Below, in pieces: positions 47,614 through 58,040 of a stretch of DNA of 64,000 nucleotides; position 1 is the first letter of the stretch, and each line of letters opens with the position of its first letter. The notes beneath the pieces were generated by a model. It ran no database searches and had not been told where the DNA came from. It worked only from the letters and a program-made list of their open reading frames with translations. The stretch is from Phyllobacterium endophyticum (GTDB lineage: Bacteria; Pseudomonadota; Alphaproteobacteria; Rhizobiales; Rhizobiaceae), in assembly GCF_003010935.1 (NCBI RefSeq), contig NZ_PGGN01000004.1, forward strand, positions 186,001-250,000, written 5' to 3'. A program made the position numbers and the translations under genes.

Positions 47614-49434
47614 TCACGCCTGCCGCTTGGCGGCATCCTGAATGTTGGCAGGGCGGTAGCTCGCAGACAGGCGCGAGTCCTTGGGCCAATATGGCAGGAA
47701 CCCTTTGATGACTTCACCCGGAATATCGAGAGGATTATAGTGTTCGCGGTCGACGAACATCAATGACTGCTCGCCGTGCCCCAGCAAGCCCTGCGCAGCG
47801 CTGTGGATCTCATGCTGCAATGTCACGAACTTCCGGTTGTGGCGAGCGATCTTGATGCGAACGGTGATCTGCTCGAATTCTTTCGACTCGCGCCGGTAGT
47901 CGTGGGTGAACGAGCGCGTGAGGATGTAGAACCGCGTCGTTGCCAGGTCAAAATCGGGCATGCAAACATTGAAGAATAGTTCCCGCGCTTTGCCGACCCA
48001 GCGCACGTAGTTGGCAAAATATACATTGCCGACGGAGTTCGTGTCGTCATAGGTCGGAACGAGTTGCATGACGAACCATTCGCCGTCAAATCCATGCGAA
48101 GGCGTGGCGTCCTGGCTGCCCGCGACGGTGGCAAGCGGCGAAGGCGACATCATGCGGATAGGTTGATCGACTATTTCAACGGGGATGGCCTTGGAGGCAG
48201 GCCTGAACAGCTCGATCATTGCCGGCAAGGCGCCTATCAGGCCGATAAAAGGGGAAATGAGCAAGAAACCCGGCACCGGTTGAATATAGCCGATGATGAA
48301 GATGAGTGACGAGCCGCAACCAATCATGAAGCTGAGCACAGGATCAAACTTTGGTTTGGTACCCAAGGCCTCACATACGAGGTTGGCAGACGCGCTCACG
48401 AACAAGGTCGCAAACGGCATCATGAAATACATGAGCGAGAAATTGGCGGGAACCGCGGTGAAAGCGATCCACGTGGCGCCGATCAACAGCCAAAGCGGCG
48501 ATGAAGCGACCCCATCAGGGATGAGGGCTAGCAACGGACTGTTACTGCGCAGATTCTTGCCCTTCAGGAACCAGGATGTTGCACAATAAAAACTGTCGAC
48601 GGTCGATGCCAGGGCAATGACTGTCCAGATAACGAAAGCAAGTGCGAGGTATGGCTGCCCGTTTTCCGCGGCGAGGACCGTTGCTGCCGATACCGAACCC
48701 TGGGCACTGGGCAGGCCATCGATGGACAGTATACTGCCTATCGGGCCGACTGCCGAAGCGGTAAGCGCATTGAGAAACAGAAAGCCGAAGAACAACAGGG
48801 CGCCGACACCGTAGGCCATGCCGACATCGCCGCCTTCCCGCTTGATGGTAACCGCCCGGTGCCAATGCTGAATATCTAGCCAGGGTCCGAGCAAGAACCC
48901 GATGAGCGTAGGCATGATAAGCCCATAGAAGCGGCTGTCGAACTGCTCAAGCGGTACGCCCGGGTAGTCTGATGTTTGCCGCAGCCCAAGGAGCAGCACA
49001 ATGCCGGCCGCGACCCCAACGATCGTATAAAAGATATGCAAGAGCTTGAGCTGCTGTAACGACAGCGCATGGCCGATGGCACATGCAAACAACAACAATA
49101 GCGCAACGCCGACCGGAGACCCCTCCCCGACGATTGGCTGCCAAAGATACGCGACAAACCCGAAGATCGTCACTACCAGTGCGGCCATCTGAAACAGCAG
49201 GAATACGCCGGCGTAACGGCCTTCTATATCCTTGATGATCTGATCGGGCGATCGCTTGGTGCGCCCGAGAATATAGCCAAACAGCCACAGCCCTGCGACA
49301 TTGGCTATGGCGAAGCCAAAAAAACCCAACCAGCCATAGGTCAATGTGACGTGGATGGAGTAAAAGAAACCCAACCCCCACAGCCAGGATAAGCCTATTG
49401 TTGGTGCCCACAAAAGATTCCGCACGACCGTCAT
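47614..49434 (-). CDS. Fusion of a multi-helix transporter-like domain and a hotdog thioesterase
   Basis: A 606-residue protein. Residues about 1-430 form roughly 12 hydrophobic helices resembling sodium:solute-symporter/LeuT-fold permeases (LWLFGYILGRTKRSPDQI, FVIWTVIALASTVDSFYCAT). After a linker, residues about 455-606 are a 4HBT-type hotdog domain: TNSVGNVYFANYVRWVGKAR then ELFFNVCMPDFD, closest in pattern to enediyne-polyketide thioesterases such as CalE7/DynE7. VTLQHEIHSAAQGLLGHGEQ follows, where acyl thioesterases carry the second strand. One continuous frame covers both parts. The role is unknown; hydrolysis of an acyl thioester at the membrane coupled to uptake or export is possible. 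Confidence 0.75.
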   Translation of the reverse strand: MTVVRNLLWAPTIGLSWLWGLGFFYSIHVTLTYGWLGFFGFAIANVAGLWLFGYILGRTKRSPDQIIKDIEGRYAGVFLLFQMAALVVTIFGFVAYLWQPIVGEGSPVGVALLLLFACAIGHALSLQQLKLLHIFYTIVGVAAGIVLLLGLRQTSDYPGVPLEQFDSRFYGLIMPTLIGFLLGPWLDIQHWHRAVTIKREGGDVGMAYGVGALLFFGFLFLNALTASAVGPIGSILSIDGLPSAQGSVSAATVLAAENGQPYLALAFVIWTVIALASTVDSFYCATSWFLKGKNLRSNSPLLALIPDGVASSPLWLLIGATWIAFTAVPANFSLMYFMMPFATLFVSASANLVCEALGTKPKFDPVLSFMIGCGSSLIFIIGYIQPVPGFLLISPFIGLIGALPAMIELFRPASKAIPVEIVDQPIRMMSPSPLATVAGSQDATPSHGFDGEWFVMQLVPTYDDTNSVGNVYFANYVRWVGKARELFFNVCMPDFDLATTRFYILTRSFTHDYRRESKEFEQITVRIKIARHNRKFVTLQHEIHSAAQGLLGHGEQSLMFVDREHYNPLDIPGEVIKGFLPYWPKDSRLSASYRPANIQDAAKRQA

Positions 49435-49962: not shown

Positions 49963-51435
49963 TCAAAGACGGCGCAGACTTTCCGCGAGTGCCGAAACAT
50001 CCGCTCCAAGCGCCCTGTCGGTTTCCAGCCCAGGCGAGATCGTCCGAACGCTATCACAGCCTAGCCTGGCGCCCTTTCCGCAGCGATGCTCCGGCCTCAA
50101 ATCCATGGCCTGAGCTGCAGCCAGCATTTCGCAGGCAACGAGCTGTCGCCAAAGGTCGACGATCTCAGCACATTTCGCCACCGCGAGCGGAGTCTGCGTC
50201 GCATGATCCTCCACGCCCTCGGAAACTGCAAGGAAATCCAGCAGTACAGGATTGGCCTTGTGGCGAATGGCACCGGCGAGTGCGGCCACAGTTTTTTGCA
50301 ACGGCACAAATCCGGCCGAAGCTCCGCCAACAGGACTCAGATACCGCGGCAGGCCATGACGGCCAGAACCAGTGATCTGAATGAAACGCGCAGCACTTGC
50401 CAGCGCCGTTTGCGCGATCGCGAGCCCAAGGGTTTCGAAAGCCAGCGCCAATGATGGCGTGTGAAAATTCCCCGTCGAAAGTACCCGCTCTTCATCGATG
50501 ATCACCAGCGGATTGTCCGCCGCCGAATTGAGCTCGATTTCGACCGCACCCGTGGTCGTCTCCAGGGTATGCGCAAGCGCCCCCTGGATTGAAGCCACGC
50601 AACGCAGGCTCAGCGCATCCTGTATGGCTGTCTTTGTTTCGAACAATGACGAGCCGTCAAGCAGAGCCAGAAGCTTTTCCGCCTCTTCCACCTGACCCGC
50701 TGCGGGGCGCGCGCGCTGGATCGCCGGCGTCAGAATTTGTGGGTTGCCGCCCAAAGCTTCAAAGCTCATGGCAACCGCTCGCCGCTGGAGCTCCAGAAGC
50801 AACGTTGCGTCGGCGGCAACCAGCGCACCTTGGCCGACAGATACAGCCGAGGCGTTGAGCAGCGACAACCCGTCTTTGGGTCCAAGCGAAGCCGGTTCGA
50901 GACCTGCCATTTTCAAAGCGCGAGCGGACGGATGAACCGTTCCCATATATTCTGCTTCGCCTTCGCCGATCAGCGTTTGCGCCAAAGCCGACAGCAAGAC
51001 CAGATCGCCAGCGCCTATGGAACCAATGGAGGGAAGGACCGGGTGAATCTGTTTGTTGAGCAATGCGAGCAAATCATTGAAAACAGCAGGGGAAATTCCG
51101 GATCCGCCGACCGAGAGCATTGCGAGCCTCGCGGCCAAGACAGCCCGGGTGACGTCGCGTTGCATAGACGGCCCGACGCCCATGCCGCGTCCGCGCACCA
51201 GTTGCTGCTGGAATGCGGCTATGCCATCGGTCACCGGCGTTTTCAGGTTTGCGCCAAGCCCCGTATTCAAACCATAGATTTGCTGTCCCGATGCTGCGGC
51301 CCTGTCGAGAATTACGCGTGCCATTTCCAGTCTGCCATAAACGTCGGGCTCGACTTCGATCAACGCATTCTCGCGCGCGATCGCGGCGATATCAGCGATC
51401 GTGGTGGCCGCACCACTGAAGACCACCCGTTTCAT
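49963..51435 (-). CDS. HAL/PAL-family protein lacking the MIO-forming serine
   Basis: A 490-residue aromatic-amino-acid-lyase-fold protein. Overall similarity is clear (IYGLNTGLGANLKTPV, QLVRGRGMGVGP, LNSAADNPLV). The catalytic MIO site, normally GSxGASGDLxPL, here reads GSIGAGDLVLLS with the Ser codon absent. The active-site segment QDxYSLRC is QDALSLRC, and LLNGT is LLNAS. Classic MIO-dependent ammonia elimination therefore looks unlikely, and the name histidine ammonia-lyase should not be used. Its ATG overlaps the cyclodeaminase-like gene, and it is the last of an eight-gene operon. Confidence 0.82.
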   Translation of the reverse strand: MKRVVFSGAATTIADIAAIARENALIEVEPDVYGRLEMARVILDRAAASGQQIYGLNTGLGANLKTPVTDGIAAFQQQLVRGRGMGVGPSMQRDVTRAVLAARLAMLSVGGSGISPAVFNDLLALLNKQIHPVLPSIGSIGAGDLVLLSALAQTLIGEGEAEYMGTVHPSARALKMAGLEPASLGPKDGLSLLNASAVSVGQGALVAADATLLLELQRRAVAMSFEALGGNPQILTPAIQRARPAAGQVEEAEKLLALLDGSSLFETKTAIQDALSLRCVASIQGALAHTLETTTGAVEIELNSAADNPLVIIDEERVLSTGNFHTPSLALAFETLGLAIAQTALASAARFIQITGSGRHGLPRYLSPVGGASAGFVPLQKTVAALAGAIRHKANPVLLDFLAVSEGVEDHATQTPLAVAKCAEIVDLWRQLVACEMLAAAQAMDLRPEHRCGKGARLGCDSVRTISPGLETDRALGADVSALAESLRRL

Positions 51436-52445
51436 GCAAAGCGCAACCGCTGGCCGATATTCAATGCGTGGGCCTTCTCCAGCATGGCATAGCCCAAGGC
51501 GATATCACTTAGCGACAACCCGCGGTGCCAGAAAAGAATAGTCTCATCCTCACTCTCCCGCCCAGGCTTGTGCCCGGCAACGATCTGTCCAAGCTCGGCA
51601 TGCAATGTCTGTTCAGACAGCCTGCCCGCCTCCACATGCGCACGCAGCGATCCAAATTTTCCACCCTTGCATTGACCCCAGTCATCGACGACAAGCTTGT
51701 CCATTATATCCGTCAGCGACAACTCCACTGCGCTCATCGTTCCATATGGCACGACGAATGCGCCGGGCTTGATCCATTCTGTTTTCAGCATTGGCTGTGG
51801 CTCCGGCAGGCGCGACGCCTCGACGACGATGTCGGCGCCTTCGACACAGGAGCGCCAGTCGTCGGTAACGATGATCCGCTTGCCGAGGTCATGCGAAAGC
51901 TTCTTGGCAAATGCGCCGCGGCTCTCGGGACGGCGCGAATGCACACGAATTTCATCAAAATCATAGAGATGATCGAGCAGCCTTACATTCCAGTATGCCG
52001 TGCCACGTGCACCGATATGGCCAAGCACCTTGGAATTCTTCCGCGCGAGATACTTCGCCCCCAGTGCTGTTATGGCACCCGTACGCATATCGGTGATGAC
52101 AGTGGCGTCGAGGATGGCGCGAGGCACGCCTGTACGCGGATCGAAAAGGTTGAGTACGCCAAACTCCGAGGGAAAATTCAGCTTGTAGTTATCGACAAAG
52201 TCCCCGACGATTTTCACGCCCGCCAGATTCAAAGGAGCAACATATCCGCGCAACACGTTGAAATGACCATTGAAAGTTGCATCAGGTTCCAAATGCACCC
52301 GTGGCTCTATCACAGTCTGGCCATTCCCCTGCGCGGCGAGCGAAGTTTCGATTGCGGCAAGTATCTCTTCATCGGTCAGCGCCAGCGCGTCAATGTCGAG
52401 TGCATTCAGATAGTCGATGTAAATAGGTTTCATGTCTTTGCTCAT
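51432..52445 (-). CDS. Ornithine cyclodeaminase/mu-crystallin family protein, non-canonical
   Basis: A 337-residue NAD(P)-binding protein of the OCD/mu-crystallin family: PSEFGVLNLFDPRTGVPRAI, ITDMRTGAITALGAKYLA, and the nucleotide loop VLGHIGARGTAYWNVRLL. The segment that carries the catalytic Asp in true ornithine cyclodeaminases (GADxPGKxEL) reads GTMSAVELSLTD, so that Asp appears to be missing. Family relatives also act as imine reductases or amino acid dehydrogenases. Both ends overlap neighbouring genes by 4 bp. Confidence 0.85.
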   Translation of the reverse strand: MSKDMKPIYIDYLNALDIDALALTDEEILAAIETSLAAQGNGQTVIEPRVHLEPDATFNGHFNVLRGYVAPLNLAGVKIVGDFVDNYKLNFPSEFGVLNLFDPRTGVPRAILDATVITDMRTGAITALGAKYLARKNSKVLGHIGARGTAYWNVRLLDHLYDFDEIRVHSRRPESRGAFAKKLSHDLGKRIIVTDDWRSCVEGADIVVEASRLPEPQPMLKTEWIKPGAFVVPYGTMSAVELSLTDIMDKLVVDDWGQCKGGKFGSLRAHVEAGRLSEQTLHAELGQIVAGHKPGRESEDETILFWHRGLSLSDIALGYAMLEKAHALNIGQRLRFA

Positions 52446-53758
52446 GCTGCGCGTGCCGGGATACTGATTCCGAGATTTTCCCGCAATGTGCGCCCTTCAT
52501 ACTCATCGCGGAAGAGCCCACGGCGGCGGAGTTCGGGGATGACCAGCTCAATGAAATCCTCAAGCGCACCAGGGAAATACGCGCCCATGACGTTGAAGCC
52601 ATCAGCGGCTTTACCATGAAATCGCTCTTCAAGTTCATCGACGATCTGAGCCGGCGTGCCTATCAATTGCCAATGCCCGCGTGCGCCGGCGAACTGGCGC
52701 GCCACTTGACGGATAGTGAGGTTCTCACGTCGCGCGAGATCGATGATCAATTGCTGACGGCTCTGGATACCGTCTGTGTCAGGCATTTGTGGCAATGGCC
52801 CTTCCAGCGGATATTGCGACAAGTCCTTGATGCTGAGATAGCTGGCGAGCAACGCCACCCCCACCTCGTCGGGTATGAGTTCCTGCAAGGCATCATATTT
52901 TGCCCGCGCTTCGCTTTCGGTTCGCCCGACGATGGGAGATACGCCGGGAAGTATCTTCAGATCATCGGGAACGCGACCGAAAGCTGGCATGCGTGACTTC
53001 AAGTCGGCGTAGTAGGTTTGCGCTTCCTGCAAAGTCTGCGCCGCCACGAACACAACGTCCGCCGTTCGCGCCGCAAGGTTCTTGCCTGCGTCCGAAGCAC
53101 CCGCCTGTACCATCAGCGGTCGGCCCTGAGGCGAACGCGGACTGTCCAGCAAGCCTTGGACGGTGAAATGCGCACCGTGATGATCGACGGGACATAGCTT
53201 GGCTCGATCCGCGTAGGTTTTTCCATCAACAACGTAGGCACCTGCATCGACGCTGTCCCAAACCGCCCTTGCCGCTTTCTCGAACTCCTCTGCGCGTTCA
53301 TAACGCTGCGCATGAGGCCGCAAGCCGCTTGACACGAAATTTTCGGCCTCGAGTTCACTCGCCGAGGTTACGAGATTCCAGCCAACCCGGCCACCGCTCA
53401 ACTGATCGATGGAGGCCAAAGTCCGGGCCAGACCATAGGGCTCGTTGTAGGTCGTGGAGGCTGTAGCGACCAACCCGATGCGTGATGTGTTGACCGCCAA
53501 TGCTGCAAGCAAGCTAAGCGGCTCGAACATGGTTGATCGCGCCGCCTGACTTGCCGTATTGACGTTGCGCTCGCGGATCGCAGCCGCGTCTTCAAAGAAG
53601 ACCATGTCGAATTTGCCAGCTTCGGCCATTTGCGTCAGGTCAATGAAGTGGTCGACATCCACACCGGCTTCAGCAACCGCATCTGGATGCCGCCAGGCCG
53701 CAATGTGATGCCCGCCCGCCATGAGAAAGGCACCAAGCTTCATATGGGCCTTGCTCAT
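52442..53758 (-). CDS. NtaA/SnaA/DszA-type FMN-dependent monooxygenase (LLM)
   Basis: A two-component class C flavoprotein monooxygenase, 438 residues: KLGAFLMAGGHHIAAWRHPD, MVFFEDAAAIRE, FEPLSLLAALAVNTSRIGLV, GGRVGWNLVTSASELEAENF, and PLMVQAGASDAGKNLAARTA. These are typical of NTA monooxygenase component A and relatives that oxidise amines or thioethers with FMNH2. No flavin reductase is encoded in the operon, so a reductase from elsewhere would be needed. The 4-bp overlaps on both sides indicate coupled translation. Confidence 0.9.
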   Translation of the reverse strand: MSKAHMKLGAFLMAGGHHIAAWRHPDAVAEAGVDVDHFIDLTQMAEAGKFDMVFFEDAAAIRERNVNTASQAARSTMFEPLSLLAALAVNTSRIGLVATASTTYNEPYGLARTLASIDQLSGGRVGWNLVTSASELEAENFVSSGLRPHAQRYERAEEFEKAARAVWDSVDAGAYVVDGKTYADRAKLCPVDHHGAHFTVQGLLDSPRSPQGRPLMVQAGASDAGKNLAARTADVVFVAAQTLQEAQTYYADLKSRMPAFGRVPDDLKILPGVSPIVGRTESEARAKYDALQELIPDEVGVALLASYLSIKDLSQYPLEGPLPQMPDTDGIQSRQQLIIDLARRENLTIRQVARQFAGARGHWQLIGTPAQIVDELEERFHGKAADGFNVMGAYFPGALEDFIELVIPELRRRGLFRDEYEGRTLRENLGISIPARAA

Positions 53759-54825
53759 GAGATTCGCCTCTCTGCGATTGCGGGATGTTCCGGATACGAA
53801 AGTCCAAGATGCTCCCGCAGGGTGCCACCCTCATAGGCGCTACGGAACAATCCGCGCCTTCTCAGTTCAGGTATGACGTGGTCTACGAATGCATCGGTGC
53901 TCTCCGGCACCAGCGGTGGCAGAACGGTAAAGCCATCAACGATGCGGGACCACTCCTCCAACACATCCGCAATCTCCGCTGGCGTGCCGGTAATTTCCAG
54001 ACCCGAAGGCTTCTCTCCATCGAAGCTCAGCGCATCCAGCCTCTCGTGCAGCTCCTTCGCGTCAGCTTTCGTCGTGCCGATGAATGGGATTACATTTGCA
54101 AGGACCCTTACATCCGACCGCGAGCGACCATGGCGCTGAAGTCTTTGCGCAAGGTCCAGGACGAGGGTCTCGGCCTCGTCCGCGGTCGACGGATCGATGA
54201 AGACAAGTTCAGCCGAGCGTGCCGCAATTTCCAAGGTATCGGCTGTCAGCACGTGCGAAACGACTGGCTTGCCCTGAGGCGAGCGATTGACGTTAAGCGG
54301 ACCACGTACGGAGAAATATTCTCCCCTATGGTCAAGGACGTGCATCTTTTCCGGCAGGAAAAAGCGCCCTGACGCTTTGTCATAAGCAAAGGCGTCGTCC
54401 TCCCAGCTGTCCCAGAGACCGTTGATAACGTCGATATATTCCAGATCCCGTGCGGCTGCTTCCGGCGATACGACGACGTTCCACCCCGCCTTGCCCTTGC
54501 TGATAATGTCCAGCGAGGCAAAGCGGCGCGCCAGGTTGTAGGGCTCGTGCTGGCTGGTCGCAGCGGCTGCTATCAGTCCGATTTTGCGGACTAGCGTGGC
54601 AAGTGCCGCGACCAGCGTTGTTGGCTCGAATGGCACGGCTTGCGGCGACAGATCGTTCAGAGGGCGCTCGCCAAGCTGATCGGTGAAGAATACGAAGTCC
54701 AAACCGCCTTCTTCTGCTTTCTTCACCTGCGCTGCCAAGGCGTTGAAATGAATCGCATCTTCCGTCTTTTCACGCCAAGCGCCGGGATGATGGCCGAATG
54801 GCGTGATCGATACTCCGATGTGCAT
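53755..54825 (-). CDS. Second LLM-class flavin-dependent monooxygenase
   Basis: A 356-residue bacterial-luciferase-fold protein: MHIGVSITPFGHHPGAWR, DFVFFTDQLGERPLND, PTTLVAALATLVRKIGLIAA, KGKAGWNVVVSPEAAARDLE, VVSHVLTADTLEIAARSAEL. It is shorter than the adjacent paralogue but ends with the same RRRGLFR-AYEGGTLREHLGL pattern, so the pair may have arisen by duplication or act on successive intermediates. ATG 54825 has AAGG 9 nt upstream; ATG 54846 is an alternative. Confidence 0.88.
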   Translation of the reverse strand: MHIGVSITPFGHHPGAWREKTEDAIHFNALAAQVKKAEEGGLDFVFFTDQLGERPLNDLSPQAVPFEPTTLVAALATLVRKIGLIAAAATSQHEPYNLARRFASLDIISKGKAGWNVVVSPEAAARDLEYIDVINGLWDSWEDDAFAYDKASGRFFLPEKMHVLDHRGEYFSVRGPLNVNRSPQGKPVVSHVLTADTLEIAARSAELVFIDPSTADEAETLVLDLAQRLQRHGRSRSDVRVLANVIPFIGTTKADAKELHERLDALSFDGEKPSGLEITGTPAEIADVLEEWSRIVDGFTVLPPLVPESTDAFVDHVIPELRRRGLFRSAYEGGTLREHLGLSYPEHPAIAERRIS

Positions 54826-54854
54826 GTTGAGAACCCTTGCTTTCATACTGGCTG

Positions 54855-55787
54855 TCAAACCGCAAAAATAGCGTCCCGCGTCACCTCGCCTTTCACTGCC
54901 CCGCTTTCGTCCACCACAGCAAGCACATCGCTATTGGCGGCAACCATCAACGCCAGCGCATCGCGCAGATTACTGGTCAGCGCCACTGTGCTGGTACCGG
55001 ATCGAGGCGAAGCAACATTCATTGCATCGCTCACAGTGAACAGGCTGAGCCGCTTGATCGCGCGGTCTATTCCGACAAAGTTTTCGACAAAAGCGTCGGC
55101 GGGACGAGACAACACTGCGTCCGGCGTATCATATTGAACGATCTTGCCGCTTTTCATGATGGCGATGCGGTCTCCAAGCCGGATAGCCTCGTCGAGATCA
55201 TGGGTGACGAGCACAACCGTCTTGCGCACACGCTGCAGAATCTGGCGAAATTCGTCCTGGAGCCTCGTCCGGGCGATTGGATCGATCGCCCCGAAGGGTT
55301 CGTCCATCAACAGCACTGGCGGATCAGCTGCAAGCGCGCGTGCCACGCCGATGCGCTGGCGTTGCCCGCCTGAAAGCTGGCGCGGGTACCGCTTCAGCAT
55401 TTCACCCGCGTCAAGCCCGACCAGATCCAACAATTCTTCCGTGCGCTTCTTTGTTCTTGTTTCGGCCCAGCCCAGCAATTTGGGAACGGCAGCGATATTC
55501 TGGGCGATTGTCATGTGGGGAAACAGACCGACCTGCTGGATCACATAGCCAATGTGCCGGCGCAGTTCGACCGGGTCGACCTTGGTGACGTCCTCGCCAT
55601 TGACAATGATCTTTCCTTCGCTTGGGTCAATCAGACGATTGATCATGCGCATAGTTGTCGTCTTTCCGCAGCCGGATGGTCCGATGAGCGCCGTCGTTGT
55701 CCCTTCCGGAACAACAAGTGAAAGATCGTCGACCGAGGCGGGTCCGTCTGCGACGAAACGTTTGGTCACATGTTCCATGTTGATCAT
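54855..55787 (-). CDS. ABC ATP-binding protein, OpuCA/ProV osmoprotectant type
   Basis: The ATPase of a quaternary-amine-uptake importer, 310 residues: GPSGCGKTTTMRMINRLIDP (Walker A), VIQQVGLFPHMTIAQNI (Q-loop), [47 protein letters not shown]. The C-terminal part retains a reduced CBS-like region (SDVLAVVDESGAVKGEVTRD). It overlaps the permease by 4 bp. Family ligands are betaines, choline, carnitine or ergothioneine. Confidence 0.9.
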   Translation of the reverse strand: MINMEHVTKRFVADGPASVDDLSLVVPEGTTTALIGPSGCGKTTTMRMINRLIDPSEGKIIVNGEDVTKVDPVELRRHIGYVIQQVGLFPHMTIAQNIAAVPKLLGWAETRTKKRTEELLDLVGLDAGEMLKRYPRQLSGGQRQRIGVARALAADPPVLLMDEPFGAIDPIARTRLQDEFRQILQRVRKTVVLVTHDLDEAIRLGDRIAIMKSGKIVQYDTPDAVLSRPADAFVENFVGIDRAIKRLSLFTVSDAMNVASPRSGTSTVALTSNLRDALALMVAANSDVLAVVDESGAVKGEVTRDAIFAV

Positions 55788-56425
55788 GCGGTAGATCTCT
55801 CAGCAAAAAAGAACTTTTCGGCCAGGCCGAGGGTGAACTCGGTTGTGAGCGCGAGCAGCGCAATGGGAACGGCACCGACCAGCAGCCTCGACATATCCAT
55901 CATACTGATGCCGACGGCTATGAAATCGCCAAGTCCGCCACCGCCGATGAACGGGGCGAGTGTTGCGCCAGCAAGAACCTGCACCGCCGCTGTACGTGCG
56001 CCCGCAAACATTGCCGGTGCTGCAAGGGGAACACGAATTTTCCGCAGAACCTGGCCGCGGCTCATCCCCATGCCAATCGCCGCCTCGACGGCATCCGGGT
56101 CAACATCGCGCAGTCCGATGAAGGCATTGAGCAGGATCGGCGGCAATGCGAGAATGGTGAGGGCAACGATGGAAGGCCATAATCCTATTCCGAGCAAGGG
56201 CATCATGATCGCGAGGATGGCAAGACTTGGAATGGTTCTCAGGGCATTGATTATGTTGATGACAGCGAAAGCAAGTCCGCCGCGATTGATGATCAGGATC
56301 GCCAGCGGCAGGCCGATGGCCAAGGCAAATGCCAGCGAGACGCCAGACATGATTAGATGCTGGCCAAGGGCCTGGTAGAATTCGGGTTGATGATCGATGA
56401 TCCAGTTGAAGGCGGTCATCAGCAT
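55784..56425 (-). CDS. ABC permease, OpuC/YehY osmoprotectant type
   Basis: A 213-residue permease with five to six helices. It shows NIINALRTIPSLAILAIMMP, ALPPILLNAFIGLRDVDPDA and the [17 protein letters not shown] motif typical of the QAT family. ATG 56425 is chosen because GGAGG lies 7 nt before it, within the end of the upstream permease gene. Confidence 0.9.
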   Translation of the reverse strand: MLMTAFNWIIDHQPEFYQALGQHLIMSGVSLAFALAIGLPLAILIINRGGLAFAVINIINALRTIPSLAILAIMMPLLGIGLWPSIVALTILALPPILLNAFIGLRDVDPDAVEAAIGMGMSRGQVLRKIRVPLAAPAMFAGARTAAVQVLAGATLAPFIGGGGLGDFIAVGISMMDMSRLLVGAVPIALLALTTEFTLGLAEKFFFAERSTA

Positions 56426-56426
56426 G

Positions 56427-57047
56427 TCATGACCTCCCCCGAACCAGATATTTTTCAGCCTGGCTGAGCACGACATCGAAAAAGATAGCCATCAAGGATG
56501 TCAGGATACCGCCGACCAGTATTTTCTCCGTGTAGTTCTGATCGATCCCCATCAGGATGATAGTACCCAGTCCGCCCCCGTCGATGAATGCAGCTACGGT
56601 GGCAATACCGATCACGGTCACGAGCGCGATGCGTATACCAGACACGATGAGCGGCAACGCAAGCGGGAGTTCAATGCCAATTAGCCGCTGCCAGGGACTG
56701 TAACCCATGCCGTCTGCCGCATCGAGAACATCGGCGGACACGCCGCGCAACCCCGTAACGACGTTACGCAGAAGTATGAGCAGGCAATAGGAAGAAAGCC
56801 CGACCAGCGCGGGCTTGGTGCCGAGTCCAAGCCAAGGGATCAGAAGCGCGAACAGCGCCAGACTGGGAATGACGAAGATAATCCCGGTTATCGTCAGGAC
56901 GACGGCATAGAGCTTTGGACGGCGGGCGCTGATGATCCCGAGAATCAACGCGATCAAAAGTCCTATCAGCACCGAAGACACCGAGAGCACCAGATGCTGC
57001 CACGTTGCGGTGAGTATTTCCGGAATGTTCTTAGGGGCCCAGTTCAA
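56427..57047 (-). CDS. ABC permease, OpuC/YehW osmoprotectant type
   Basis: A 206-residue paralogue of the downstream permease: HLVLSVSSVLIGLLIALILG, FVIPSLALFALLIPWLGLGT, TGLRGVSADVLDAADGMGYS (cytoplasmic coupling loop) and AAFIDGGGLGTIILMGI. Start is a TTG at 57047 with AGGA 8 nt upstream. The two permeases probably form a heterodimer. Confidence 0.9.
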   Translation of the reverse strand: MNWAPKNIPEILTATWQHLVLSVSSVLIGLLIALILGIISARRPKLYAVVLTITGIIFVIPSLALFALLIPWLGLGTKPALVGLSSYCLLILLRNVVTGLRGVSADVLDAADGMGYSPWQRLIGIELPLALPLIVSGIRIALVTVIGIATVAAFIDGGGLGTIILMGIDQNYTEKILVGGILTSLMAIFFDVVLSQAEKYLVRGRS

Positions 57048-57158
57048 GGGTGCCGTCCTGCCTGCGTCGTCGCTCTAGCAATGAAATAGCGGAGATGTGG
57101 CCATCTCCGCCATACGTTTGGATCATGGGCGGGACGGAATGCGCCGCCGACGCCGAAA

Positions 57159-58040
57159 TCAGATATTTTTTTCCTTCAGGAACTCCGCAGCAACTTCCTT
57201 CGGCTCTTTCTTGTCGCGCTCGACTGCGGCGTTGAGGTCGCGCATGATTTCATTCGTCAGAAGCGGGCTCACTTTATTCAGGACTTCGGCGATCTTCGGA
57301 TTCTTCGTCAAAGCATCCTGACGAATTACAGGCACGAGATAGTAGGGCGGGAACAGATGCTTGTCGTCATCGAGTACGACCAGGCTGCTGTCGGCGATCT
57401 GCCAGTCTGTGCTGAAACCATAGGATACATCGATGTTCTTGCTGGTCAGAGCGCTGTAGCGGATGCCAAGCTTGGCGAAGATGCGGAAATCCTTGAACTC
57501 GATGCCGTAAACCTGTTTCAGCCCAGGCAGTCCATCCTTGCGCTCGCCGAAACCGCCTTCGGCACCAAAGGAGAGCTCCTTGGAGGCTGGACCAAGATCC
57601 GTGAGCGTCTTGAGCTTGTATTTCTCCGCGGTCTCGGGGAGCGTAATAATGGCATAACCATTGTTGATCTGCGTCGGTTCGAGCAGGGTCAATTGCAGGT
57701 TCTTCTCGTAATAGTCTTTGACATCTTTGTAGATCTTGTCGGCAGAGCCTGAGAGATCACCCTTGACGACTGCAGCAAGCGCGGTCCCGGTATATTCCGG
57801 ATAAAGATCAATTTCGCCGCTCGTCAAAGCCGAGTGAGCGATGAGCGTAGCGCCGAGATTGAGCCGCCGCTCGACTGTGACGCCAGCCTTCTCCAGCGCC
57901 TGCGCATAAATTTCGGCTACGACGAACTGTTCCGTAAAATTCTTGCTGCCGATTTTCACGGTCTGGGCAAAGCCGGACGTAGCCGCGGTCAATGCGACCA
58001 ACACGCCGAACCCAATGGAGGCGACACTTCTCAAGATCAT
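57159..58040 (-). CDS. Osmoprotectant-type solute-binding protein (OsmF/OpuCC family)
   Basis: A 293-residue periplasmic binding protein with signal peptide (ASIGFGVLVALTAATSGFAQ). TVKIGSKNFTEQFVVAEIYA, HSALTSGEIDLYPEYTGTAL and VSYGFSTDWQIADSSLVVLD are family signatures. Members use aromatic or Tyr/Asp cages to bind quaternary ammonium compounds, and some relatives (EgtU) bind ergothioneine. It is the first gene of the operon, preceded by AGGG and an 8-bp inverted repeat. Confidence 0.9.
   Translation of the reverse strand: MILRSVASIGFGVLVALTAATSGFAQTVKIGSKNFTEQFVVAEIYAQALEKAGVTVERRLNLGATLIAHSALTSGEIDLYPEYTGTALAAVVKGDLSGSADKIYKDVKDYYEKNLQLTLLEPTQINNGYAIITLPETAEKYKLKTLTDLGPASKELSFGAEGGFGERKDGLPGLKQVYGIEFKDFRIFAKLGIRYSALTSKNIDVSYGFSTDWQIADSSLVVLDDDKHLFPPYYLVPVIRQDALTKNPKIAEVLNKVSPLLTNEIMRDLNAAVERDKKEPKEVAAEFLKEKNI

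Follow-up and report, generated by a model that had tools for sequence, protein, structure and literature searches.

An eight-gene operon of Phyllobacterium endophyticum predicted to import and degrade a betaine through an ergothionase-like lyase lacking the MIO triad

The stretch of DNA analysed here (the window; 64,000 nucleotides, positions 186001-250000 of contig NZ_PGGN01000004.1 from the 5.5 Mb genome of Phyllobacterium endophyticum) carries at 49963-58040, on the minus strand, eight co-directional open reading frames (ORFs) for an ATP-binding cassette (ABC) importer, two luciferase-like monooxygenase proteins (LLM-A and LLM-B), a protein of the ornithine cyclodeaminase (OCD)/mu-crystallin superfamily and a lyase of the histidine ammonia-lyase (HAL) family. 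Our best reading of this set is a betaine catabolic operon with a trimethylamine lyase lacking 4-methylideneimidazole-5-one (MIO), whose new parts would be the OCD subfamily and an LLM heterodimer. More specifically, and with somewhat less than even confidence, we propose that the operon imports a sulfur-bearing histidine betaine (ergothioneine or its sulfonate) and degrades it as far as urocanate.

All eight ORFs are in the ORF list of the window at the expected coordinates and each matches its family, in agreement with the first-pass annotation, which had described an eight-gene operon with overlaps at five of its seven junctions. Each of these five overlaps (HAL/OCD, OCD/LLM-B, LLM-B/LLM-A, LLM-A/ATPase and ATPase/permease 2) is of 4 bp. 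The listed frames of the two permeases share 50 bp, or would be about 1 bp apart with a later Met start, and a gap of 111 bp separates permease 1 from the gene of the substrate-binding protein (SBP). The same annotation had deduced the import and degradation of a cationic nitrogen- (perhaps nitrogen- and sulfur-) containing compound, and the evidence below supports this.

Conservation of the gene set

The importer, LLM-A, LLM-B, OCD and HAL genes were found together and in the same order in all 11 loci retrieved through the lyase (10 from Phyllobacterium and one from another Rhizobiales isolate, with lyases 69-84% identical), and the whole set is also present on three rhizobial plasmids, those of Sinorhizobium sp. 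B11, Rhizobium acidisoli and Rhizobium sp. CC-CFT758. Phyllobacterium trifolii CECT 7015 and P. bourgognense 31-25a are among the carriers of the operon. Because the same order recurs in these 11 loci and three plasmids, the grouping is not due to chance, and a lack of joint conservation elsewhere, named in the first-pass annotation as a ground for refutation, does not apply. The same three plasmids gave the top matches in the plasmid collection both for LLM-A (48-54%, the next one listed being 41% among the best 25 of 788 records) and for LLM-B (72-76%, the next being 57% among the best 15 of 620 records). Six genomes of one sister genus have only OCD and the lyase (58-61% identical), side by side, and neither LLM genes nor an importer of the operon type was found near them. 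No similar DNA was found in E. coli genomes, and phage records gave matches to OCD only, all below 60%. Genes in the relatives' loci (designated L with a number) were assigned by their score for GC content at third codon positions and then by tblastn, and because the genome searches scored three to five top candidates in each genome, further copies of a gene may have escaped them.

The MIO-less lyase

The lyase (49963..51435, minus strand; 490 amino acids; PF00221, 434.5 bits) has as its best solved-structure match by sequence the ergothionase 6s7j (E 7e-76; 31% identity), followed by a HAL (E 7e-71). Its residues 137-145, IGSIGAGDL (51001..51027, minus strand), occupy the place of the MIO triad Ala-Ser-Gly, and in this GSIGA-GDL motif the Ser of the triad is missing. 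In the alignment a Leu stands at what we take to be the second active-site Tyr of HAL, and Arg83 (51187..51189, minus strand) replaces the His of the 'SH' motif of HAL and ergothionase. The Lys and Glu of the ergothionase QKT and EDH motifs, which presumably have a catalytic role, correspond to K381 and E409 of the window lyase, and neither residue varies among the 25 lyases that were aligned.

An AlphaFold model of the lyase (predicted local distance difference test 91) had ergothionase as top match with a template modelling score of 0.95, and an ordinary HAL was about equal; the modelled fold does not discriminate between the two. In a tree of 62 lyase rows, ten HutH rows fell on one side of a branch (100/99), one of them (L149) also lacking the triad, and the window lyase was placed within a set of 22 rows (99/94), 21 of which are linked to OCD. 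The Treponema ergothionase was located outside this clade, with the burkholderial rows L159 and L160 (100/100), in a tree with several long branches.

Ergothionase itself is without MIO, according to PMC13405746. Since the sequence of the window lyase is ergothionase-like and MIO-less, we predict the elimination of an amine from a quaternary ammonium compound: the protein belongs with the MIO-less ergothionase-like proteins and is expected to release a trialkylamine (trimethylamine), not ammonia. Thus, the earlier description of the gene as HAL-like holds for the family and probably not for an ammonia-lyase activity. Identity with HutH was rejected on the absent MIO Ser and on a score of 354 bits against the hutH equivalog cut-off of 539. 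Several rhizobial genes labelled 'hutH, histidine ammonia-lyase', for example on plasmids of R. acidisoli, CC-CFT758, R. johnstonii and R. lentis, are also without the MIO triad, and their name is probably wrong.

Other triad-less members of the family were observed during this survey. HutH-like proteins with GSVGY replacing the MIO triad (L149:14978-16612, minus strand; L188; L191) form a further HAL lineage without Ala-Ser-Gly, and distant HAL-family proteins of 25-27% identity without the triad, a tandem pair at L137:13442-16506 (minus strand) and one at L144:6777 (minus strand), lie a few kb from OCD.

The OCD-like protein and its genomic neighbours

The OCD-like protein (51432..52445, minus strand; 337 amino acids; PF02423, 180.6 bits) is the most conserved enzyme of the set. 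Among the 60 plasmid records listed of 84, copies from Rhizobium, Cupriavidus, Paraburkholderia, Polaromonas, Paracoccus, Rhodococcus and Streptomyces are 63-86% identical, with neighbouring lyases down to 34-60% identity outside the clusters with the full set. An alignment of 65 OCD sequences, some of them near-copies, has 52 near-invariant positions at which neither reference structure agrees with the subfamily, and these include H51, H61, R66, R268, W306, H307 and R308. Arg121 and Lys78 are conserved; Met237 aligns with an Asp of alanine dehydrogenase that we assume to be an active-site residue, and the second reference, 6t3e, is also without Asp in that column. By its sequence the protein is a distinct subfamily of the OCD superfamily, and the reduction of imines, which the first-pass annotation gives for OCD relatives, may not apply to it. 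The HSRR stretch at residues 169-172 predicts a preference for NADP(H), and the set of cationic residues would be compatible with a doubly anionic substrate.

Among 397 genomes of the order, 22 have both OCD and the MIO-less lyase, three OCD only, six the lyase only and 366 neither; the lyase is thus found in 22 of 25 OCD genomes versus 6 of 372 others (Fisher 1e-27, genomes counted without kinship correction). OCD was counted at E values up to 1e-120, and the MIO-less lyase where the motif was read among the stronger matches. By genus the numbers are 13 with both, three with OCD only, one with the lyase only and 125 with neither. In 20 of the 22 genomes with both, the two genes are at most 10 kb apart. 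The link is looser outside the order, where the hits read include such a lyase for 12 of 28 OCD genomes, and in class and phylum regions picked by OCD alone the lyase is near OCD in 4 of 29.

Genes for histidine utilization (hut) were found no more than 10 kb from OCD in 5 of these 29 regions, against a rough expectation of about 0.2 with one hut operon per genome. They were also near OCD in five of nine plasmid regions, chosen for lineage spread from the 60 records listed of 84, one of the five having a hutC-type gene only. In the Comamonadaceae strain OTU4NAUVB1 the order is hutC-hutH-hutU-OCD-PhnD-TctC, with hutI-hutF-hutG further along; in L149 a lyase-SBP-OCD-PhnD-permease-permease-ATPase block adjoins hut genes; and in Paracoccus saliphilus OCD lies among hut genes with a putative sulfate exporter adjacent and PhnD nearby. 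Polaromonas has a LysR-YeiH pair followed by the MIO-less lyase, TctC, OCD and PhnD, and on R. johnstonii pRL12 LysR-YeiH is followed by CoA-transferase, short-chain dehydrogenase/reductase (SDR), MaoC, hutC, lyase, SBP, OCD, PhnD and transporter genes. A YeiH/PF03601 putative sulfate exporter is present in three cluster lineages (Rhizobium, Polaromonas and Paracoccus), and a CysN/C-type gene adjoins OCD in L085 and L086. A gene of the quaternary-amine methyltransferase family MTTB lies about 6 kb or less from the lyase in L066, L073, L075, L082, L083 and L086, joined by a dimethylglycine dehydrogenase-like gene in L066, L073, L075 and L082. Altogether, the neighbours suggest a methylated ammonium group, an imidazole acrylate and, more weakly, sulfur.

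A PhnD/SsuA-family protein (PF12974) is encoded near OCD in 22 of 73 OCD loci (for example L051, L052, L054, L160, L162, L164 and L167). The sequences from L052 and L054 have no obvious signal peptide by eye, and the protein may be an enzyme or a sensor rather than part of a transporter. On a Streptomyces chartreusis plasmid (L163) OCD and the MIO-less lyase adjoin, and matches to the permeases and SBP of such an importer lie close by; this cluster in an actinobacterium suggests transfer across phyla.

The LLM-A/LLM-B pair

LLM-A (53755..54858, minus strand; 367 amino acids) and LLM-B (52442..53758, minus strand; 438 amino acids) both score above the NtaA/DmoA family cut-off of 279.7 bits, with 328.9 and 530.9 bits, respectively. 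LLM-B has as its best solved match NtfO2 of the NtfO1-NtfO2 heterodimer (7e36), is similar to YtnJ (E 2.5e-101) and keeps seven of the eight contacts of NtfO2 to docked flavin mononucleotide (FMN) in 15 of 15 copies. In LLM-A the FMN-binding His is absent in 15 of 15 copies, and the window copy has lost most of the lid region. Since LLM-B retains most of the FMN contacts while LLM-A has lost the His and, like NtfO1, the lid, the two probably form a single heterodimeric enzyme that has one flavin site, LLM-B being the predicted catalytic subunit and LLM-A its partner. The two flavin monooxygenases of the first-pass annotation hence remain as family members and probably become one enzyme. The operon contains no flavin reductase gene; three candidates are present elsewhere in the source genome.

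The regions of two LLM-B relatives of 57% identity were read, and one of these relatives is accompanied by msuE, a TauD-type gene and an ABC importer. Just past the operon in L015 and L017, at about 12.6 kb, lies a gene for an additional single LLM protein, 44-45% identical to LLM-B and with eight of eight NtfO2 FMN contacts. Of 73 OCD loci, 12 have a desaturase-type gene at most 10 kb from OCD (L056-L061, L133, L134, L140, L146, L165 and L166), and seven of them also have a ketopantoate-hydroxymethyltransferase-like gene; the desaturase-type protein possibly fills the LLM-A/LLM-B slot as an oxygenase.

The importer

The first gene encodes an OpuC/OsmF-type SBP (57159..58040, minus strand; 293 amino acids; PF04069, 229.9 bits), followed by permease 1 (56427..57047, minus strand; 206 amino acids with a TTG start as listed), permease 2 (55784..56476, minus strand; 230 amino acids as listed, about 213 with the later Met start) and a ProV-type ATPase (54855..55787, minus strand; 310 amino acids; TIGR01186, 341.3 bits versus a cut-off of 326.6). 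The permeases match PF00528 with 75.6 and 69.4 bits.

The SBP keeps the carboxylate-binding residues K33, T86 and R167, the last placed by spacing, as well as N127 and Y129 as part of the cage, and the import of a betaine by the SBP, the two permeases and the ATPase is well supported by these features. F35 and Y83 align with Phe15 and Tyr63 of the glycine-betaine protein AfProX, positions that correspond to Gly244 and Phe293 of EgtU (SpEgtU numbering) according to PMC9732360, and membership of EgtU was rejected on these two residues. By motif spacing (R-x-D for G163), I125 and G163 appear to be at the positions of Tyr337 and Glu375 of EgtU. A loss of the acidic contact (Glu375) would suit a sulfonated ligand, and a small betaine would be equally possible.

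Elsewhere in the source genome, a PF04069 match at C6:173972-174643 (L008) contains one in-frame TAA.

Proposed pathway and alternative explanations

In the pathway that we propose, the betaine would be taken up by the SBP, the two permeases and the ATPase, as family and betaine-binding residues strongly indicate. LLM-B, with the non-flavin-binding LLM-A as partner and flavin reduced by an enzyme encoded outside the operon, might then convert the thione to a sulfonate, or oxidise the molecule elsewhere, ahead of the lyase reaction. The lyase would carry out a 1,2-elimination of trimethylamine to give a ring-substituted urocanate, a step supported by its family, the missing MIO Ser and the shared Lys and Glu. 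The OCD-like protein could subsequently transfer a hydride from NADPH to the sulfonated imidazole carbon, releasing sulfite and forming urocanate; we know of no other member of the OCD/mu-crystallin superfamily with NADPH-dependent reductive desulfonation of an aromatic ring. Urocanate, an end point suggested by the neighbours in some relatives, might enter the hut operon. The source genome has one such operon, which contains its single urocanase match, and, also in favour of the proposed pathway, no PF10017/EgtD match. In its complete form, an oxidative-then-reductive route in root-associated bacteria, in which LLM-A/LLM-B make the sulfonate, the lyase removes trimethylamine and the OCD-like protein desulfonates to leave urocanate, trimethylamine and sulfite, is unlikely.

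Several observations weigh against the proposed pathway. The SBP has F35 and Y83 in place of Gly244 and Phe293 of EgtU and, by motif spacing, seems to lack counterparts of Tyr337 and Glu375, and ergothioneine itself is therefore not the indicated ligand. No hut, YeiH, MTTB, CysN or PhnD match was found near the operon in 11 of 11 Phyllobacterium loci, the source genome has no PF03601 match, and the YeiH and CysN links come from few lineages. The other LLM-B relative of 57% identity stands with acyl-CoA-dehydrogenase-type and LLM genes and with no clear sulfur gene. Outside the order, 16 of 28 OCD genomes had no such lyase among the hits read, although two of them encode a HutH-like protein with GSVGY, and 18 of the 29 OCD-picked regions, some truncated at a contig end, gave no match to a lyase, hut, PhnD or TctC gene. 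In L148, L164 and L167 OCD stands with an MIO-bearing HutH, which means that OCD does not depend on a betaine. The shared Lys is absent from three MIO-less lyases of OCD genomes (L180, L182 and L183). Finally, Arg83 is a weak marker: of the MIO-less lyases linked to OCD, 41 of 44 have it, a count that takes in the window lyase and many near-copies, and so do 7 of 14 with no OCD within 10 kb. Excluded from both counts were HutH rows with MIO, the two distant proteins of L137 and the one of L144.

Some of these points would fit a histidine betaine that loses trimethylamine with no sulfonate involved (hercynine, ergothioneine or a ring-methylated form), with some different modification of the ring or side chain by OCD and LLM-A/LLM-B. 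The evidence from the lyase, the importer and the hut genes needs no sulfur, the YeiH and CysN neighbours are missing at the Phyllobacterium loci, and OCD also occurs beside MIO-bearing HutH. However, a conversion of hercynine to urocanate would require neither OCD nor LLM-A/LLM-B, yet OCD is the most conserved enzyme, and both the recurrence of YeiH in three lineages and the SBP residues speak against this explanation, which we consider a serious though rather unlikely candidate. A non-histidine betaine (hypaphorine, another aromatic one, or a cyclic one such as stachydrine), converted by the lyase to an acrylate and oxidised further, is distinctly unlikely given that hut genes near OCD in several lineages indicate imidazole chemistry; nevertheless, CoA-transferase, SDR and MaoC genes adjoin the R. 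johnstonii lyase and SDR and MaoC are annotated in R. lentis, as would be expected if an acrylate underwent beta-oxidation, many source strains come from legumes, and residue 83 of the lyase is unlike the His of HAL and ergothionase.

Ordinary ergothioneine uptake followed by the known ergothionase/thiourocanate route appears very improbable. That route is not known to have a place for LLM-A/LLM-B and OCD; moreover, the SBP fails at the EgtU-specific residues, the Treponema ergothionase is outside the clade of the window lyase, and the sole urocanase match lies in the hut operon, which leaves no thiourocanate hydratase candidate of that family. In its favour, the nearest solved lyase structure is an ergothionase, and EgtU is among the OpuC-type importers (PMC9732360). 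An osmoprotectant importer followed by unrelated metabolic genes is scarcely credible: the OpuC/OsmF family and the 12 PF04069 matches of the source genome would allow it, but 4-bp overlaps join importer to enzyme genes and the gene order is constant in 11 loci and three plasmids. Plain osmoprotectant uptake was rejected on this structure and conservation.

Boundary of the operon

The next minus-strand gene past the lyase (47614-49434) is 528 bases away. An ORF of comparable length follows the lyase in L009-L012 and is absent there in the other Phyllobacterium loci; for this reason the gene was kept out of the operon. Its product of 606 amino acids combines a long hydrophobic N-terminal part without a Pfam match and a C-terminal 4HBT thioesterase domain, and its sequence indicates an unusual membrane-thioesterase fusion.

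Implications and comparison with known systems

If the sulfur-bearing histidine betaine proposal is true, rhizobia and relatives could draw nitrogen and sulfur from histidine betaines such as ergothioneine derivatives, they could release trimethylamine in the rhizosphere, and a reaction new to the OCD superfamily would have been found. The claim of an undescribed system stands in so far as a literature search of titles and abstract openings found no description of the eight-gene operon. It is qualified by a paper on the ergothioneine sulfonate catabolic pathway of Agrobacterium radiobacter (Yan, Huang and Zhang, 2022, ACS Catal.), which is cited in PMC13405746 and PMC9967237, the former citing it for a trimethylamine lyase. 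Judged by its title and the citing sentences, that pathway also has a sulfonated histidine betaine as substrate, and it may cover part of the pathway of this operon, lowering its novelty. Likewise, the view that the route lies apart from known ergothioneine catabolism has to be softened, as the relatives' neighbours suggest a histidine-derived, possibly sulfur-containing substrate and the operon may extend the catabolism of ergothioneine or ergothioneine sulfonate.

With EgtU importers the operon shares an OpuC-type SBP with N127/Y129 and the carboxylate residues K33/T86/R167, whereas F35, Y83 and, by motif spacing, I125 and G163 differ at four positions and the SBP is a gene of its own in contrast to EgtUBC, which is fused according to PMC9732360. 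The OCD-like protein has PF02423, Arg121 and Lys78 in common with the alanine dehydrogenase/OCD/mu-crystallin superfamily and is set apart by the 52 near-invariant positions special to its subfamily. LLM-B resembles YtnJ and the NtaA/DmoA monooxygenases by sequence, unlike LLM-A with its lost FMN His. The NtfO1-NtfO2 (StmO1-StmO2) pair is, according to PMC8027225, a heterodimeric flavin hydroxylase of polyketide biosynthesis with a lid-less NtfO1; LLM-B is nearest to NtfO2 and the lid is missing from both NtfO1 and LLM-A, whereas the operon described here is putatively catabolic. Finally, the lyase and the ergothionase of Treponema denticola (6s7j) are alike in fold, in the missing MIO Ser, in the Lys and Glu and in the Leu at the second Tyr of HAL, and differ in overall sequence, in clade, in His versus Arg83 and in the OCD-like and LLM partner genes that accompany the window lyase.

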